Part shown: piece by piece, positions 12,967 through 27,939 of the stretch | How positions within the stretch are numbered: position 1 is the stretch's first letter | Layout: each line of letters opens with the position of its first letter | Position numbers and translations under genes: made by a program | Notes under the pieces: model-generated | The model's input: the letters and a program-made list of their open reading frames with translations, nothing else | Databases searched by the model: none | Told to the model about the DNA's origin: nothing | Virus record (IMG/VR): IMGVR_UViG_3300006916_000281 | Location: 1 to 27,990 of that record | Direction: 5' to 3' (one strand) | DNA length: 27,990 nucleotides | From: a virus

Positions 12967-13803
12967 ATGACACAATTGATTGATCCAGAAAAATTCACTA
13001 ACGTCACAAATCTTCTTCGTTCTTTTTTTGCAAAAAAAGGGTTTCAAGAAGTTCACACTCAAAATCGTCTTAGCATTCTAGCTGCCTGCGAAGACCCATT
13101 CAACGTCGCTACTTATAACTATGAGGGTAAAGTTTGGCCGTTACCGCAAACCGGCCAGATGTGGTTAGAGCACGAATTATTGTCCAAGCCTTCTTCGAAA
13201 GGCTTTTTTTGTGTCAGTACCTCATACCGCCAAGAGCCTAACGCTATCCCTGGCAGACACGATACTATTTTCCCGATGTTCGAATTTGAAATGCCAGGCG
13301 ATATTTATGATTTGAAGGAAATGGAATATGAATTGGTGGAATACTTAGGATTTGATAAGCCTACAGAAAAAAGGTATGTTGAATGGCAAGAACACTATGG
13401 TATAGAGGGCGAGATTGAAGCTGGACACGAGACAACTATGTTTAATGATTTCGGTAGCACAATGATCACTGACTTCCCAGAGTCCACAAGCCCATTTTGG
13501 AATATGAGTAGATACAATATCTTCCAAAGTAAGACCCAATACAGTAAAAAGATTGATGTTATCCTTGGCGGTATGGAAACAATTGGTAGTGCTGAACGGA
13601 GTTCAGATATAGATAAAATGCGCGACACTTTCTACACTATCACAGACGGCGCGTACTCGAATCTATTATTCTCATTGTTCGGTAAGGACAGAGTTGAGGC
13701 TGAACTTGAAGAGTTCTTTAAGTTTGATTTCTTCCCTAGAGTTGGTGGTGGTATTGGACTAACTAGACTCATCTCGGCTATGGATAAACAGAATGTGCGA
13801 TAA
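12967..13803 (+). CDS. Stand-alone class II synthetase core, asparagine synthetase/AsnRS-like
   Basis: The 278-residue protein has the class II aminoacyl-tRNA synthetase catalytic fold of the Asp/Asn/Lys subgroup. Visible elements are a motif-1-like helix (VTNLLRSFFAKKGFQEVHT), PQTGQMWLE (about 60-68, as S/TGQLxxE in AsnRS), motif 2 YRQEPNAIPGRHDTIFPMFEFE (87-108, R88 and E90), MITDFPESTSPFWNM (166-180, as D-Y-P-x-x-x-x-P-F-Y), GGMETIGSAERSSD (201-214) and motif 3 GGGIGLTRL (260-268, R267). There is no N-terminal OB anticodon-binding domain. That size and layout fit the archaeal AspRS-derived asparagine synthetase or a free-standing synthetase paralogue. Substrate is not decided by sequence; asparagine synthesis or modification of an amino-acyl acceptor are options. 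ATG 12967 is used because the ATG at 12960 leads to a stop after seven codons. Confidence 0.75.
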   Translation: MTQLIDPEKFTNVTNLLRSFFAKKGFQEVHTQNRLSILAACEDPFNVATYNYEGKVWPLPQTGQMWLEHELLSKPSSKGFFCVSTSYRQEPNAIPGRHDTIFPMFEFEMPGDIYDLKEMEYELVEYLGFDKPTEKRYVEWQEHYGIEGEIEAGHETTMFNDFGSTMITDFPESTSPFWNMSRYNIFQSKTQYSKKIDVILGGMETIGSAERSSDIDKMRDTFYTITDGAYSNLLFSLFGKDRVEAELEEFFKFDFFPRVGGGIGLTRLISAMDKQNVR

Positions 13804-13942
13804 GTGTGACCGAAAAGTGATACACGAAACCACAGATAAAATGTACAAAATACAGTGTGGTGGGTGTCACAAACCAATCTACGGTGACCCAGAAAAAGAC
13901 TGTGAGCAGTTTATCTTGTCACCAGTAAGAGGGAATAAATAA
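13793..13942 (+). CDS. Small CxxC protein (49 aa), zinc-ribbon-like
   Basis: This short frame starts inside the end of the synthetase-like gene (11-nt overlap, different frame) and reads MCDKCDRKVIHETTDKMYKI, then QCGGCHKPIYGDPEKDCEQF and a short basic tail. Cys pairs at 2/5 and 22/25 could bind one zinc as a mini zinc ribbon; a fifth Cys is at 37. The overlap suggests translational coupling. No function can be assigned. Confidence 0.6.
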   Translation: MCDKCDRKVIHETTDKMYKIQCGGCHKPIYGDPEKDCEQFILSPVRGNK

Positions 13943-13964
13943 AGAATACTATCAAAAATATAAC

Positions 13965-14237
13965 GATTGATAGTTAATTTAGGCGATGTATGAGATATTA
14001 CGGACTCGGCTTCGATGCCGACATCTCCACCATAAAGCGCGTATTAAATATGTGTTTTATTTCGGGGATGAAATGGATTCGACGTGTGTTAATTACAAAG
14101 TTTAGTTATCGGGATCTAAGCGCCGTTACCGCGAAGAAAAACTATAATTGCAAATGACAATTATCAAATTATGGCTATGGCTGCTTAGGTAGCATAGTTC
14201 GGGGTGACCCACCAGACCTAGCAACAGAACTGGTGGG
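13965..14237 (+). ncRNA. ssrA: Circularly permuted tmRNA gene
   Basis: The two ends of a tmRNA occur in swapped order. First comes the acceptor piece: CGGAC at 14001, T stem TCGGC/GCCGA (14006-14010 with 14017-14021), acceptor strand CATCTCC (14022-14028), then encoded ACCA (14029-14032). After a 31-nt spacer comes the normal tmRNA 5' end, GGGGATG (14064-14070) followed by AAATGGATTCGAC. GGGGATG pairs with CATCTCC over 7 bp, including G3-U70, the alanine identity pair. TTAGTTATC (14102-14110) pairs with GATAGTTAA (13969-13977) as helix P2. A PK1-like and A-rich segment (14111-14149) precedes the tag frame (14150-14188), and a hairpin surrounds its stop. An 8-bp stem CCCACCAG/CTGGTGGG (14208-14237) then GTTTTCT closes the gene. 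Maturation would remove the spacer to give a two-piece tmRNA. It should rescue stalled ribosomes with SmpB and tag proteins for proteolysis. Outer ends are approximate. Confidence 0.9.
14150..14188 (+). other. tmRNA tag reading frame, peptide ANDNYQIMAMAA
   Basis: From resume codon GCA the frame reads ANDNYQIMAMAA followed by TAG. E. coli tags read (A)ANDENYALAA and alphaproteobacterial tags commonly begin ANDN. The tag keeps the C-terminal Ala-Ala recognised by ClpXP, but the preceding residues are MAM rather than the common ALAA or VAA. The charged alanine would add one more N-terminal Ala. Confidence 0.88.
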
Positions 14238-14238
14238 G

Positions 14239-14254
14239 TTTTCTGATCAGAAAA
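14239..14254. repeat. 16-bp perfect palindrome after the tmRNA
   Basis: TTTTCTGATCAGAAAA is fully self-complementary. It follows the closing hairpin of the tmRNA and lies 31 nt before the permease ATG. It could be an operator or part of a transcription end signal. Confidence 0.5.
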
Positions 14255-14285: not shown

Positions 14286-15599
14286 ATGATTAAAAATTTT
14301 ATTGAGAAAGTTGACGGGTTCTTCGGTATCGCTAAAAGTGGCAGTAATGTAAGAACTGAAGTCATGGCTGGTCTGGCCACGTTTTTGACTATGGCGTATA
14401 TCACAGTAGTCAATCCTGCCATTCTATCAACCGAAGGCACTGGTATGCAGTTCGGTGCTGTATTTACAGCTACTATTATCGCCGCTGTTGTCGGTACACT
14501 TATTATGGGTCTATATGCAAAATGGCCTGTTGCTCTAGCTCCTGGTATGGGGTTGAACGCATTCTTTGCGTTTGGTGTTATTTTTGGTATGGGTTACACA
14601 TATCAACAAGCGCTCGCGGCGGTATTCATTGCAGGACTGGTGTTCGTAATCCTTAGTGTGACGCCGGTGAGGAAACACATGATCAATGGTATCCCAAAAT
14701 CCATGAAGTATGGTATTGGTGCTGGTATTGGTTTGTTCCTAGCTATTATCGGTCTTAAGAACGCTGGTGTGGTCGTAGACAATCCAGCAACGCTAGTGGG
14801 TCTGGGTGACATCTCAAGCTGGCCAGTTCTCCTAGCTGGACTTGGTTTTGCAACCATGGCAATTGCTGATAGACGTAAGATCCCTGGAGCTATTATTATT
14901 GGCGTGATGTTGACGAGTCTTGTGGCTTGGATCTTCGGTATTTCGGAAATCAATGGTATTGTTGGTAGTATCCCAAGCCCTGTGCATGCTTTCAGCATGG
15001 ACTTTAGCTTGATCGCCACATCAGGGTTTATTGGTGTAGTATTTGCGTTCTTGTTCGTGGACTTCTTCGATACAGCTGGTACACTCACAAGTGTGGCCAA
15101 CATGACAGGAAAAGTCAATAAAGATGGAACTGTCAAAGATGTACATAAAGCTGTACTAGCTGACTCGGTAGCAACTACTGTCGGCGCTCTAGTCGGCACC
15201 AGTAACACCACTTCATACATCGAATCTGGTGCTGGAGTTAAAGAAGGCGGGCGTACTGGGTTAACTGCAGTCGTAGTAGCTGTATTATTCGCTCTATGTT
15301 TGTTCTTCGCGCCGCTGGCTCAAAGTATCCCAGCTTTTGCGACGGCTCCTGCGCTTGTGTTCATTGCGGCATACTTCTTGAAGAATATCAAAGATATTGA
15401 TTGGGATGACGTTAGTGAATATGCGCCAGCTGTTCTAGCGGCTATTATCATGCCTCTAACATTTAGTATCGCTTATGGTATTGCACTTGGTTTTATCGCG
15501 CACGTTGTGATTAAATTCCTGAGTGGAAAGCGCAAAGATTTAAATGTTGGATCAATTGGAATCGCGGCGGTAAGTGTCTTGTACTTCTTGGTAGTATAA
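14286..15599 (+). CDS. NCS2/AzgA-family purine permease
   Basis: I use ATG 14286 (437 aa) because GAAAGGGA lies just upstream; an in-frame TTG at 14271 would overlap this site. The length is normal for the family (430-450). The protein is very hydrophobic, with about 12-13 membrane segments. AzgA/PbuG-type motifs are intact: TEVMAGLATFLTMAYI near the N-terminus, LAPGMGLNAFFAF, DFFDTAGTLTSVA, GTSNTTSYIESGAGVKEGGRTGL and IIMPLTFSIAYGIALGF. Family members take up adenine, guanine or hypoxanthine by proton symport across the inner membrane. In a phage this would feed purine salvage for DNA synthesis (inference). It is followed by a strong terminator and may be read from upstream together with the tmRNA; I see no clear promoter of its own. 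Confidence 0.92.
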   Translation: MIKNFIEKVDGFFGIAKSGSNVRTEVMAGLATFLTMAYITVVNPAILSTEGTGMQFGAVFTATIIAAVVGTLIMGLYAKWPVALAPGMGLNAFFAFGVIFGMGYTYQQALAAVFIAGLVFVILSVTPVRKHMINGIPKSMKYGIGAGIGLFLAIIGLKNAGVVVDNPATLVGLGDISSWPVLLAGLGFATMAIADRRKIPGAIIIGVMLTSLVAWIFGISEINGIVGSIPSPVHAFSMDFSLIATSGFIGVVFAFLFVDFFDTAGTLTSVANMTGKVNKDGTVKDVHKAVLADSVATTVGALVGTSNTTSYIESGAGVKEGGRTGLTAVVVAVLFALCLFFAPLAQSIPAFATAPALVFIAAYFLKNIKDIDWDDVSEYAPAVLAAIIMPLTFSIAYGIALGFIAHVVIKFLSGKRKDLNVGSIGIAAVSVLYFLVV

Positions 15600-15692: not shown

Positions 15693-15719
15693 AGATTATA
15701 ATTTAATAAAGGAATGAAG

Positions 15720-16691
15720 ATGTTAAAGTTCTTTACAGATAAAAAATGGTGGCCGTGGTCGATTGGTGGTACGATTGTTATTGTGGCTGCTGTGTACACC
15801 ATCGTAAGGCTTGACGTCATGATTAATGAATGGTTTGGTGCATTCTACGATCTTTTACAAAAAGCTCTCTCAGCACCAAATGCTGTTTCTCTGGGTGAAT
15901 TCAATTCACAGTTAATTACCTTCTTTACTATTGCAGGTGTATATGTGATCATTAATACAGTGTTCAACGGCTTCTTGGTGAATCACTGGACTTTTCGTTG
16001 GAGACAAAGTATGGCAGAATACTATCTTGCCAACTGGGCGAAAGCGCGTAAGGTAGAAGGCGCAAGCCAACGCTTACAAGAAGACACACTAAAGTTTGCT
16101 CGTATCACAGAATCTCTTGGTATCGGACTGCTCGAATCTATTCTGATGCTTGGTGCTTTTATACCTGTACTTTGGGTGTTATCCGAAAAGATTACTGTCC
16201 TGCCGATCGTAGGCGAGGTTAGTCAATCCCTAGTTTGGGTCGTGATTCTCACTGCTCTCGGTGGCACTGTAGTGCTGACATTGGTTGGACACAAGCTTCC
16301 TGGAATTGAATATGATATTCAAAAAGCCGAGGCTGCTTACCGCAAAGAGCTAGTAATTGGTGAAGATGATTCGACCAGAGCGAAGAAAGCTGATGTAGAT
16401 TTCCTATTCAGAGATGTAAAGAAAATACACTTCCGTTCATATATGCATTACTTCTACTTCAATATTGCAAAATGGTCATATATCCAAGGTATGGTAATCG
16501 TACCATATGTTGCTTTGGCGCCAACTATTGTAACGGGTGCGATCACTCTCGGTGTTGTGTCACAAACATCAAGGGCTTTCGGTAAAGTTGCGGAAAGTCT
16601 CCAGTATGTAGTGAGAAGTTGGACGCAGATTGTAGAAGTAATTTCTGTTTATAAAAGGCTGTCCGAGTTCGAGTCAAAAATTAATGACTGA
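15720..16691 (+). CDS. SbmA/BacA-family inner-membrane peptide transporter, short N-terminus
   Basis: The product is 323 residues if the ATG at 15720 is used; AAAGGA touches the first ATG (15714) and is well spaced for the second. It follows E. coli SbmA (406 aa) almost throughout from SbmA residue about 86. The motifs are NEWFGAFYDLLQKALS, the very conserved FRWRQSMAEYYLANW, VEGASQRLQEDTLKFA, LPGIEYDIQKAEAAYRKELV, GEDDSTRA, SYMHYFYFNIAKW, and the end RSWTQIVEVISVYKRLSEFE. About 80 N-terminal residues with the first membrane segment(s) of SbmA are absent. SbmA/BacA are proton-driven importers of peptides (microcin B17, Bac7) and related compounds, without an ATPase domain. First gene of a run with the decarboxylase, gp33 and gp59. 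Confidence 0.93.
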   Translation: MLKFFTDKKWWPWSIGGTIVIVAAVYTIVRLDVMINEWFGAFYDLLQKALSAPNAVSLGEFNSQLITFFTIAGVYVIINTVFNGFLVNHWTFRWRQSMAEYYLANWAKARKVEGASQRLQEDTLKFARITESLGIGLLESILMLGAFIPVLWVLSEKITVLPIVGEVSQSLVWVVILTALGGTVVLTLVGHKLPGIEYDIQKAEAAYRKELVIGEDDSTRAKKADVDFLFRDVKKIHFRSYMHYFYFNIAKWSYIQGMVIVPYVALAPTIVTGAITLGVVSQTSRAFGKVAESLQYVVRSWTQIVEVISVYKRLSEFESKIND

Positions 16692-16724
16692 AACTATTAT
16701 TATATCCAACAAGGGAGAATTTAG

Positions 16725-17912
16725 ATGACCGAAATGCCCGTAATGAGAAACACCATACAAGAAATCATTAAAACACACCCAACGGAAGAGCCGTTATATG
16801 TTTTTGATCCAATGGAACTAGAGAAAACATATAATGAATTTAATGACAATTTCAACGGGATGGTTACATTTGCTGTAAAATCTAACCCACATGCATTAAT
16901 CCTAGAAAAGCTTTTGGATCTAGGCATTAAAGGATTCGATGTAGCTTCGATAGCAGAAATTGAACTCACTAAAAACCTATCAGCTGATATGGGTTTTTAT
17001 ACCGCACCTGATATGCATTACAACAATCCCATCAGGAGTGATTATGAAAATTCTTGCGCTTTATCATTAGGAGTCCGATCATTCGTAATTGATTCTTATT
17101 CAGAGCTTTTTAAATTAGCAGAGGCTTGTAATGATACTGGAATATCAACCAGGGAGGTCGAAGCCACTATTCGTTTCTACGTATACGTTCCGGACGCCGC
17201 TGGGTACGATTTCAGTACTAAATTTGGAGCGAATGCTGATAAGTCTATTTCGCTTCTAAAGAGTGCTGCAGATCTTGGTTTCCAGCTTGCAATTACGTCG
17301 CATCCTGGGTCCCAATGTAAACGAGCAGAAACATTTGCGATATATATGAAAACTGCAAGAGATATTGTTGTCTCTTCCGGTCTCGTATATGATGTCAAGA
17401 GAATGAATGTTGGTGGTGGGTTTCCTATTGGATTTCCGTTACAAGAAGTTGATACGTTCGATCAGTATATGTCAAAGATCGAAGGCACTACAGCAGAACT
17501 ATCAAAGAGCGGATGGACGCCTGATTTGATATGCGAGCCAGGGAGAGGTATGGTAGCATCATGTGTTAGTTTGATCACACAAGTCAAGGCTATCAAGGAA
17601 GACGGTAGAATCTATATTAATGATGGCAAGTATGGAGCTTTTGAAGAGTGTCGAACCCTCAAGTTAATCCCTAAATTCGAAGTCGTTGATCATGAAGGTA
17701 ATCCAAAAACCTCAACAAACACTCGGCCTAGATCAATATTCGGACCGACATGTGATTCGGATGATGTGATGCCGTATGAATTAGACATGCCATTGGGTTT
17801 AATGCCAGGCGATCATATCGTTTTCTATAACATGGGTTCTTATGGCTCAGCAACAACAACAGATTTTAACGGTTACTGCAGTAGAAACTACATAACAATT
17901 GAGGATTATTAA
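16725..17912 (+). CDS. Ornithine/lysine decarboxylase, PLP fold type III
   Basis: The 395-residue protein is full length for eukaryotic-type ODC/LDC. All active-site elements are visible: PLP lysine in FAVKSNPH (K52), FDVASIAEIE (71-80), TSHPGSQC (H193), glycine loop NVGGGFP (228-234), CEPGRGMVA (E271-R274), the catalytic Cys-Asp in GPTCDSDD (C343, D344) and GSYGSATTTDFNGY (Y373). It should decarboxylate ornithine and/or lysine to putrescine or cadaverine in the cytoplasm; specificity cannot be read by eye. Polyamines neutralise packaged DNA and aid replication, so a phage role is reasonable (inference). The ribosome site is AAGGGAG; the small unknown gene follows at once. Confidence 0.92.
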   Translation: MTEMPVMRNTIQEIIKTHPTEEPLYVFDPMELEKTYNEFNDNFNGMVTFAVKSNPHALILEKLLDLGIKGFDVASIAEIELTKNLSADMGFYTAPDMHYNNPIRSDYENSCALSLGVRSFVIDSYSELFKLAEACNDTGISTREVEATIRFYVYVPDAAGYDFSTKFGANADKSISLLKSAADLGFQLAITSHPGSQCKRAETFAIYMKTARDIVVSSGLVYDVKRMNVGGGFPIGFPLQEVDTFDQYMSKIEGTTAELSKSGWTPDLICEPGRGMVASCVSLITQVKAIKEDGRIYINDGKYGAFEECRTLKLIPKFEVVDHEGNPKTSTNTRPRSIFGPTCDSDDVMPYELDMPLGLMPGDHIVFYNMGSYGSATTTDFNGYCSRNYITIEDY

Positions 17913-21271: not shown

Positions 21272-23974
21272 TTAGCCCACCATGGTCGCTGGTTCTTCTG
21301 GTGAAAATGCTGGTTTAGTAGAAGTTTTGCCTGGGAGCACTATATTTGGCGCTGTTGCGCTGGCCAAGATTTGACCAGCATTTTTGATATTATTTGTAGC
21401 TAAATTAACCGTCTCATGCAATCCAAGTACAGCGCCGTTGCCAGGTGTTTCATCCGGCAATTCTTTATCGATATCTAATAATATTTGTTCACCAGGTGTA
21501 ATATTTTCTATCGCGCCTCCTGTCACAAACCCAGAATTTATTGATTTTGGGCTTGTGGTGGTGTCTTCTGGTGTAGACCCAGCTTTCTTCCTTTCTTCGC
21601 GAATCCTAAGAACCTTTTCTCTACCCGATTTAGTGAATTTAATATCTACATGTTTACCAGTGCCATGATTGAAGTTTCTGACGATTTTAAAATCACTAGG
21701 CTCATTAAGACCATACCTGCTTTTCATTTCTGAGACTAATTTTTTAACCTCAGAATTGTAATTACCGTTGATTGTAAAATCAAGTCTAATGCCTTGAAGA
21801 TGTTCGCTCATATATTCTTTGGAATACGGGCCATGATGGTAGCTATCATTCTGAGCCGTAGTGCGGTTAAACGCACCTCCGAGGATATCTTGGATTTCGC
21901 CTGCCATGAATGTCACATTGGGGTCATTAAACTTGCCAAACTTCCCTCCAGCGAATGCTTGGCCGCCTTTCTCATTTAGCTCTGAATATGTTGTCACACC
22001 CAGATCTTGTAATGTGGTGGTTTTGCCGCCGGTTAATTTAACACGCAATTTAAGCACAGACTCCGGTAGGGTGTCCATAAGTTTTTTATTATCTCCAGTG
22101 GCGTCGAACAAGCCACTTTCAACAGCCGAAGTTGTCAACTCAGGGATTTCAGCCTCACCCCTATTACCGGATATATTCCCTGTTTCCTTGAAGTTCTTAA
22201 CAGCTTCTTCTGGGGAAATGGATTTTCTATTGATGACCTTAGACGAAGGCATAACCCTATAGAGCGCGCGGCCAGATCCATCATTCTCAATCACCAAAGT
22301 CAATTTTTCACCCGTGCCACTTAGTGCTTTTTGGGCTTTTTCCATATTGTATATCAATCTCGCATAATCTTCTGGCGGGACAGTTATGCAACCATTAGAT
22401 CTTAATTTATCAAGATCACTTCTTATGTTTGAATGAATTTGTATTCCTATGCGACCACGACTCTCTGCTGGATCGTAACCAGTTGAGATTCTGGCGCCAG
22501 GTTTTCCGACGTTGAATACTTTTTTGAATGCACCCAATTTCTTTATACCACCCTTCGCATAGTAACCGGATACAACAGGACCTGTTGCCTGCTCTGAAAG
22601 GAGAAACGTCCCAGATGGCGCTGATTTAAATATACGTCCGTCGCGGCGGACGCGTCCGCCGCCGCCAGCCTCGAATGTATTGAATTTATAGTCAGTATAT
22701 TCATCGAATCCCCTAAATGAAAAGATGCCTTTGGCGACCGCCTTCCTTTCGGCCTCAACTTTAGGGTCATAGCCCCTTATATTTTTACCAACACCATATC
22801 CTGATAATGGTGTGCTTGGTATTACGCTGTCTGGAGATGTTGTTGTGGGCGTTGTTGTGGGCGTTGTTTTGGAATTGGGTGATATATTTATGGTGGCTTT
22901 TTTATCAATCACTATTTTGTTATATTCCACAACACCACCAGCGTTTGCTATATCAAACGATACTGACATTTCTTCACGTGGTAGTAGTGCATATTTAGCG
23001 CCAGCTTCATGTTTACCAAATTGTTGGAATAAACTTAACATGAAATCGCGATCGTGGGTCATCTCTGATGTTAATATAGTATTTGCAGATATTGGTTTAC
23101 CTCTAAATGTCAACTTCGGTAATACTGGTGTTACACGGGCGTTTTTGTCTCCATAACGCCATTTTTTAACAGCGCCAGCTAGAGTTAGGTTAGTGTACAC
23201 ATCTTGGAACAGAGACATGTTGGAAGCCAAACCCAATTTCCTAAAGGGGTATAGCCCTATTTTATGCCCGCCGCTTATTATACCGTAACCCTGGAGTCCA
23301 AATTTAACATCTTTTGCTCTAGGATAAGAAGCGCCTGGGTTATTGTATCTTACAGAAGCGGCGGTTTTTTTGCCGGTGACCTTGTTTATTTGTGGCGGGC
23401 CTTTGATCCTTTTTTTATGCGCGCCTGGAATAAATCTAATCCCTGTAATTGGTTCCCCTGGTTTAGGGGTGGAGCCTGTGGTTGGGGGCGTCGCACCGGG
23501 AGTGTATGGTGTGGGTGGGTCATCCCCTGTGGGTGTGTCATCCACTGTGGGAGTGTATGATGTGGGTGGGTCATGCCTCGGACTGCCTGGGGCTGAGTAT
23601 CCACTATCATTACCGTCCCCTAAAAATGCAGCAGCGCCCCCAAGCGCCAGCGCTCCAATACCAGACCCGGACAGCCGAGCGCCTCTGGGGTCGCCGGAAA
23701 ACATTAATTGTCTACTAGCAGCGAGAATCTGCGACAATAGACTATTAGTCTGTTGTTGTAGTTCTATATCTTGTTGTGCTAGTGTATTATATTGACCTAC
23801 CGCTGAAGTTGATTTCGCAATATTAGAATTTTGATTGTTGAGCAGATCGCCTAGACCATTGATCGACTGCATTGAAGCGTTATTGTTATCTAATGCCGCT
23901 TGTTTGAAAGTATTGGTTTCTTCGCTGTGGTCGGTAATAGATTTAGTAATTTGTGATAATATTTCTTGTGACAT
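21272..23974 (-). CDS. Large virion protein with L,D-transpeptidase-like domain
   Basis: This 900-residue protein appears modular. Residues 1-95 are helical with a polar start shared with the upstream protein. About 125-175 is a Pro/Thr/Asp-rich linker. About 205-350 is a domain with VRYNNPGASYPRA, FGLQGYGIISGGHKIGLYPF and LTLAGAVKKWRYGDKNA, a pattern I know from phage virion proteins beside wall-active domains. A Thr/Pro linker (368-385) follows. About 440-565 matches the YkuD L,D-transpeptidase layout, with GRIGIQIHSNI (H514) and LRSNGCITV (S526, C529), the H...S-x-G-C signature. A C-terminal region (about 720-795) holds HHGPYSKEYM and HGTGKHVDIKF, possibly metal binding. It lacks signal peptide and membrane segments. 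Position at the end of the gp26 operon suggests a tail-inner or tip protein acting on peptidoglycan at entry (inference). Confidence 0.75.
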   Translation of the reverse strand: MSQEILSQITKSITDHSEETNTFKQAALDNNNASMQSINGLGDLLNNQNSNIAKSTSAVGQYNTLAQQDIELQQQTNSLLSQILAASRQLMFSGDPRGARLSGSGIGALALGGAAAFLGDGNDSGYSAPGSPRHDPPTSYTPTVDDTPTGDDPPTPYTPGATPPTTGSTPKPGEPITGIRFIPGAHKKRIKGPPQINKVTGKKTAASVRYNNPGASYPRAKDVKFGLQGYGIISGGHKIGLYPFRKLGLASNMSLFQDVYTNLTLAGAVKKWRYGDKNARVTPVLPKLTFRGKPISANTILTSEMTHDRDFMLSLFQQFGKHEAGAKYALLPREEMSVSFDIANAGGVVEYNKIVIDKKATINISPNSKTTPTTTPTTTSPDSVIPSTPLSGYGVGKNIRGYDPKVEAERKAVAKGIFSFRGFDEYTDYKFNTFEAGGGGRVRRDGRIFKSAPSGTFLLSEQATGPVVSGYYAKGGIKKLGAFKKVFNVGKPGARISTGYDPAESRGRIGIQIHSNIRSDLDKLRSNGCITVPPEDYARLIYNMEKAQKALSGTGEKLTLVIENDGSGRALYRVMPSSKVINRKSISPEEAVKNFKETGNISGNRGEAEIPELTTSAVESGLFDATGDNKKLMDTLPESVLKLRVKLTGGKTTTLQDLGVTTYSELNEKGGQAFAGGKFGKFNDPNVTFMAGEIQDILGGAFNRTTAQNDSYHHGPYSKEYMSEHLQGIRLDFTINGNYNSEVKKLVSEMKSRYGLNEPSDFKIVRNFNHGTGKHVDIKFTKSGREKVLRIREERKKAGSTPEDTTTSPKSINSGFVTGGAIENITPGEQILLDIDKELPDETPGNGAVLGLHETVNLATNNIKNAGQILASATAPNIVLPGKTSTKPAFSPEEPATMVG

Positions 23975-27495: not shown

Positions 27496-27939
27496 TTAGT
27501 CTTCCGCGACTAATAGTTGAACCTGCAATAACAATCCGCCAGTCATACCGAAGAAAGTTGTTAGTAGAGCTGTCGCCATACCAATACCGATATCGGTAAG
27601 GGCTGCTTGAGTCGATTCAATATCAGACAGATCAATAGAAGCAAATGCGTTACTAAGCATCAATAGGAATCCTATAACGGTACCTATCATACCTAATGTA
27701 ACAAGCGCTTGTGTGCACCACCATAGCTTACCAATAACGTTATCTGAGTTAATCCGAACTGCACATTGCCAGCCAGCTACTATAGAAGAACAGATGAATA
27801 GCCCAATAATAAGGAAAGAAAGCTTGGTGGGGTCATTAGCGTAAACATATTTGAAAAATCCTAAGTGATTGGCGACTACTGCACAAAGCGCTGTGAAGCC
27901 CACAATTACGACCCAACTCGAAAATTTAGAATATACCAT
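27496..27939 (-). CDS. ExbB/TolQ/MotA-like membrane channel protein
   Basis: The 147-residue protein has four membrane helices (about 7-29, 39-62, 72-98, 112-140). The last two carry the channel-family pattern TLGMIGTVIGFLLMLSNAFA and, after a short polar loop, ALTDIGIGMATALLTTFFGM, where ExbB/TolQ/MotA have T-L-G-L-L-G-T-V-x-G-x-x-x-x-F and A-L-x-x-T-A-x-G-L. It lacks the large cytoplasmic domain of MotA and the long tail of Zorya ZorA, so it is a minimal channel subunit. An AGAGG site lies before the ATG. With the ExbD-like partner it would form an inner-membrane, proton-driven complex; its purpose in a phage is unknown. Confidence 0.68.
   Translation of the reverse strand: MVYSKFSSWVVIVGFTALCAVVANHLGFFKYVYANDPTKLSFLIIGLFICSSIVAGWQCAVRINSDNVIGKLWWCTQALVTLGMIGTVIGFLLMLSNAFASIDLSDIESTQAALTDIGIGMATALLTTFFGMTGGLLLQVQLLVAED

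Follow-up and report, generated by a model that had tools for sequence, protein, structure and literature searches.

The window, that is, the whole 27,990-nucleotide stretch of viral DNA analyzed here, carries an intact-looking, divergent tmRNA gene of a T4-like phage, which, judged from its sequence and from covariance models, is of the permuted (two-piece) form. In bacteria, tmRNA rescues ribosomes that have stalled. The parts follow one another in the order acceptor piece (P2 5′ strand, T arm, CATCTCC, ACCA), 31-nt spacer, GGGGATG...TCGAC, tag, and 3′ hairpin, and are located as follows, together with the flanking features.

12967–13803, plus strand: class II tRNA-synthetase-like ligase gene (Pfam PF00152; 'tRNA ligase' of P-SSM2/P-SSM7)
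13948–13955/13967–13974, plus strand: predicted leader hairpin ACTATCAA/TTGATAGT (fold −5.8 kcal/mol, z −3.5)
~13968–14237, plus strand: permuted (two-piece) tmRNA gene (sequence and Rfam cmscan)
13968–13977, plus strand: P2 5′ strand TGATAGTTAA, close to where the mature acceptor piece begins, forming a 10-bp helix with 14102–14111
14006–14021, plus strand: T arm, stem TCGGC/GCCGA with the 6-nt loop TTCGAT (sequence; cmscan alignment with one loop deletion)
14022–14028 and 14029–14032, plus strand: acceptor-stem 3′ strand CATCTCC and ACCA, the alanine acceptor end with U70 (cmscan)
14033–14063, plus strand: 31-nt spacer, predicted to be cut out; past the acceptor stem, a hairpin takes up almost its whole length
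14064–14083, plus strand: 5′ end of the coding piece, GGGGATG (14064–14070, with G3) and the D-like segment ATGGATTCGAC (cmscan)
14102–14111, plus strand: P2 3′ strand TTAGTTATCG (own-versus-swapped pairing test)
14110–14112/14123–14125, plus strand: pseudoknot-1 stem 1, CGG/CCG (aligned sequences, by eye)
14150–14188, plus strand: tag frame ANDNYQIMAMAA with stop, resume codon GCA (sequence)
14208–14215/14230–14237, plus strand: 3′ hairpin CCCACCAG/CTGGTGGG with the conserved loop ACCTAGCAACAGAA, the 3′ end of the coding piece (arms covary in relatives; consistent with where the alpha model ends)
14286–15599, plus strand: xanthine/uracil-type permease gene (Pfam PF00860)

A cmscan against all of Rfam placed RF04321 (tmRNA_permuted) at 13973–14188 with 105.6 bits (E 6.3e-20; curated cutoff, 47 bits), the match spanning the full model (positions 1–213). 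The features that define membership in this family, namely, the upstream acceptor end with ACCA and a spacer, G3-U70, P2, and a tag frame with a stop, were all present. Among the three clade models with which an earlier note on this DNA had proposed a covariance search, the alphaproteobacterial one scored best (RF01849, alpha_tmRNA; 85.9 bits at 13912–14239, cutoff 50), whereas the beta model RF01850 (65.6 bits, cutoff 84) and the cyano tmRNA model (39.1 bits, cutoff 70), scored separately, remained below their cutoffs. The phage-encoded two-piece tmRNA described in that note is thus confirmed at the level of sequence, with both RF04321 and RF01849 above their cutoffs and all parts in place. 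Indeed, the acceptor end lies upstream of the 5′ end across a spacer of exactly 31 nt, the acceptor stem with G3-U70 forms 7 of 7 pairs (GGGGATG/CATCTCC), and the tag frame opens with GCA AAT GAC as had been described (complete codons, GCA AAT GAC AAT TAT CAA ATT ATG GCT ATG GCT GCT TAG). The P2 helix joining the two pieces is also present, but is 10 bp long (13968–13977/14102–14111) rather than the 9 bp noted earlier.

Folding calculations agreed with this layout, giving z −4.1 for the whole precursor. The acceptor stem and spacer together fold at −20.3 kcal/mol versus −6.5 ± 2.4 kcal/mol for shuffles (z −5.8), as a continuous structure of CAUCUCC, a 13-bp spacer hairpin, and GGGGAUG, with a symmetric 3 × 3 internal loop beside both predicted cleavage sites. 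Spacer stems are present in relatives too. The 3′ arm of the leader hairpin overlaps the P2 5′ strand; since it uses these bases, the hairpin modeled there may mask P2 in the precursor and could hold it open until processing. The leader hairpin, the 6-nt T loop, and the 3′ hairpin are additions to what the earlier note had described.

Comparison with phage relatives and transcription

An exact pattern scan of IMG/VR yielded 58 contigs sharing this acceptor stem. A neighbor-gene search combined with whole-record Rfam scans added further tmRNA copies, found in 11 of the 50 relatives retrieved through the permease and in 7 of the 50 retrieved through the ligase, many of these records being fragments. 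G3-U70 was found in all 60 distinct phage tmRNAs, for which the pairing filter allowed any pair at this position; about half of these copies were found with a pattern fixing CATCTCC and the rest without it. In 13 aligned phage sequences, the P2 strands paired better with their own than with swapped partners (mean 6.3 versus 4.7 bp; 0 of 5000 permutations) in a test limited to regions picked after inspecting the alignment, and the helix in the window was the longest of the 13. This region-limited test replaced an unconstrained search for P2 duplexes, in which shuffles were as good in 1381 of 2000 cases because the regions were too long. Moreover, the arms of the 3′ hairpin change together around the conserved CAACAGAA loop in the 13 sequences, and pseudoknot-1 stem 1, read by eye from aligned sequences, is CCG/CGG or CCC/GGG in relatives; in the window, the stem shares its first two bases with the outermost pairs of P2. 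A near twin of the window tag, ANDNYQPEMAMAA, occurs in L199. Reduced permuted tmRNAs, which lack the P2 3′ strand and the pseudoknot-1 region and keep the tag and the 3′ hairpin loop, were observed in L085, L149, and L189.

Identity to the window is 99.9% in three contigs (L002, L024, and L040), with zero differences in 13945–14245. In a variant, L027, SNPs at 13999, 14074, 14169, and 14207 spare the helices and preserve the tag frame, with a change of I to T; its mismatches at 13971 and 13976 lie in a duplicated copy before an inserted purM rather than in the one adjoining the tmRNA. This purM-like gene (352 aa, named by eye; L027:1320–2520), just upstream of the tmRNA, is flanked by two copies of the stretch 13921–13978, possibly through misassembly.

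No sigma-70 promoter was found near the window tmRNA, and a 49-aa zinc-ribbon-like frame has its stop ~25 nt before the start of P2, which makes read-through likely. In T4-like relatives, a TTGACA-N17/18-TATAAA promoter abuts P2, in agreement with the early promoter reported for Melnitz, and transcription may therefore start at the mature 5′ end in these phages. The arrangement TTGACA-N17/18-TATAAATA directly before the P2 5′ strand was seen in L082, L106, L122, L138, L167, L199, L213, L216, and others. A T4 late promoter (TATAAATA) was considered for the tmRNA and rejected: the motif is common in relatives, and most of them have TTGACA or a near match 17–18 nt upstream, which is better explained by a sigma-70 promoter. 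In the window, TATAAATA with at most one mismatch occurred 63 times versus 61.9 expected, with no excess over chance.

The lack of a promoter match and the 6-nt T loop, in place of the standard 7-nt loop, are what would be expected of a decaying copy, once functional in the phage lineage, from which working tmRNA is no longer made. Such decay appears improbable, as the helices, tag, and 3′ hairpin are all intact, nearly identical copies occur in several metagenomes, and the changes in L027 avoid all helices. Furthermore, other phage tmRNAs whose helices are complete also have 6-nt T loops, L016 being an example (GGGGC TTCGAA GCCCC). Because loops of 6, 8, and 9 nt occur among the 60 phage copies, the 7-nt T loop was not treated as defining.

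Proposed function, origin, and known counterparts

The gene probably encodes a functional two-piece tmRNA of the alphaproteobacterial layout, as far as can be read from its sequence. One precursor would be transcribed, probably by read-through from the ligase and zinc-ribbon genes lying upstream in the contig, and would fold into the acceptor stem and spacer hairpin. By analogy with known permuted tmRNAs, host RNase P and 3′-processing enzymes would cut at G1 and after ACCA, removing the 31-nt spacer, and the acceptor stem and P2 would keep the resulting two pieces together. The G3-U70 acceptor would then be charged by host alanyl-tRNA synthetase, host SmpB would bring the charged tmRNA to stalled ribosomes, and the tag ANDNYQIMAMAA would direct the product to host proteases. 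The likely benefit to the phage is that ribosomes stalled on broken mRNAs are freed during infection and amino acids are recycled. A search of 50 related phage records (which may be fragments) found no SmpB in 49 of them, and host SmpB is therefore presumably used. Since, in addition, no RNA-processing gene was recognized on the window contig, maturation is probably carried out by host enzymes, as the earlier note had supposed. The sole SmpB carrier among the 50 records searched, L268 (G106, a 296-kb virus record), also contains a permuted tmRNA.

An opposite role, in which the RNA would be an inhibitor or decoy that occupies host SmpB or alanyl-tRNA synthetase and switches off host trans-translation, has a suggested precedent in mycobacteriophage DS6A, whose phage-borne, tag-less tmRNA has little beyond the tRNA-like domain (PMC4131195). 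In contrast, the window copy is complete; its full tag frame, pseudoknot 1, and P2 would be superfluous in a decoy, making this role very unlikely.

The tmRNA lies upstream of gp33-gp59-gp32 on a T4-like contig that also encodes a gp6-type baseplate wedge and other baseplate proteins, the nearest baseplate relatives being those of phages of Caulobacter, Pelagibacter, Sinorhizobium, and Stenotrophomonas (~34% identity). The ligase gene is widespread in T4-like phages, and in several relatives the tmRNA is directly upstream of the permease gene, as in the window. Permuted tmRNAs are common in bacteria, but it is hardly conceivable that this one is a bacterial gene and its contig misassembled or host DNA, since T4-like baseplate genes, gp33, gp59, and gp32 lie on the contig as well, independent contigs share the arrangement, and there is synteny with Melnitz. 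Three metabolic genes stand between the tmRNA and gp33, namely, the permease and, at 15714–17912, an SbmA/BacA-like transporter and an Orn/DAP/Arg-type decarboxylase. Elsewhere in the window, 27496–27939 encodes a MotA/TolQ/ExbB-like proton-channel protein (Pfam PF01618, E 8e-6), followed by a gene without a Pfam match, and 21272–23974 encodes a 900-aa tail-region protein without a Pfam match, in which SNGCI resembles, by eye, the L,D-transpeptidase active-site motif.

The sequences closest to the window tmRNA are those of other T4-like phages with the same gene neighborhood. Neither the T-loop nor the D-loop pattern of the window occurred in any of 385 sampled alphaproteobacterial genomes, and the exact acceptor plus ATGGATTCGAC pattern had no match in 84,980 species genomes. 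These results lend no support to the transfer from a host that had been put forward earlier. Host assignment by a looser pattern was also tried and abandoned, as its 19 genome stretches did not pin a host; those with a T arm and TCGAC came from alphaproteobacterial or loosely named proteobacterial/bacterial genomes, mostly with alpha-type loops, and the remaining ones looked like chance.

The view that phage tmRNAs are mostly one-piece is outdated, because 53 two-piece tmRNAs, 50 of them aquatic, have been reported in a 2021 phage collection by use of ARAGORN (Buchholz et al. 2022, PMC9004378); the tmRNA database in its current form contains 79 unique bacteriophage sequences (PMC11915505). Thus, of the earlier interpretation, the permuted phage tmRNA and its probable processing by the host are supported, whereas the one-piece view is outdated and direct transfer from the present host is unsupported. 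Two-piece phage tmRNAs are already known from the sea, and the window gene is a divergent addition to those of marine T4-like phages. ARAGORN, the customary finder of such genes, made no call on the window tmRNA; it detects 35 of the 60 distinct phage copies and misses 25, so that the published count of 53 is probably low.

A close counterpart is ssrA of the Methylophilales phage Melnitz (MZ577097; PMC9004378), a permuted two-piece tmRNA of a T4-like phage, which likewise lies upstream of gp33-gp59-gp32 and shares with the window an alpha-type coding piece and the resume region TATAATTGCAAAYGACAATTAT. It differs in having a 7-nt GGCAGTA T loop, a 142-nt spacer, a sigma-70-like promoter at the 5′ end, and the tag ANDNYVPVDYALAA, whereas the window has the 6-nt TTCGAT loop, a 31-nt hairpin spacer, no promoter match, and the tag ANDNYQIMAMAA. 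Similarly, RF01849 covers the whole window gene and has in common with it the ANDN tag start and the 3′ CAACAGAA loop, whereas its T loop (GGCRGTA) and D segment (ATAGGATCGAC) are replaced in the window by TTCGAT and ATGGATTCGAC; the loops of the window are not of the alpha type. The D segment of the window is instead similar to that of the beta type RF01850 and of the freshwater phage copies L016 and L047 (with ANDERFALAA-type tags), and some phage copies have a 6-nt TTCGAN T loop like that of the window, although the tag and coding piece of this type and of L016 and L047 differ. Phage copies with shortened T loops provide natural variants for testing the requirements of SmpB and alanyl-tRNA synthetase.

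A gene inside the spacer of relatives

The spacer of the window is short (31 nt) and empty, whereas those of relatives can be 100–207 nt long. Among the best 80 contigs encoding a 62-aa frame (MEVIWHILLTVCLGSTCLEQDVQWF...), 23 have it within the tmRNA spacer, with six different acceptor stems (L278–L281, L283–L291, L301–L304, L308, L310, L311, L313, L320, and L350). The nested frame is conserved, comprising 16 distinct DNA sequences with a median dN/dS of 0.18. An AAGGA ribosome-binding-like site lies in the 5′ arm of a 12–13-bp spacer stem, and the last codons of the frame, GS(M/V)SL-stop, constitute its 3′ arm, while non-nested homologues of the protein have different ends. In L310, both arms of the stem are altered together, and the stem of L350 is another one, read by eye as ACACGGA/TCCGTGT. 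In Melnitz, by contrast, the homologue of the 62-aa protein is encoded directly upstream of ssrA. The protein had no match in PHROG, and no description of the spacer gene was found in literature searches; it is more novel than the window tmRNA itself.

Because the start region and the last codons of the 62-aa gene form the spacer hairpin, one transcript would give both a two-piece tmRNA and a messenger. How one transcript could act as tmRNA and mRNA is the question raised by these relatives; alternatively, expression of the 62-aa gene would depend on transcript escaping processing. The window could accordingly represent a permuted tmRNA locus that evolved in phages, here in its 'empty' form, with the excised spacer as a cargo site, a reading for and against which we see the chances as evenly balanced. 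Short frames with a ribosome-binding-like site were also observed in two other spacers: a 45-aa frame starts inside that of L211 (160 nt), and a short frame in that of Melnitz (L216; 142 nt) extends into the coding piece.
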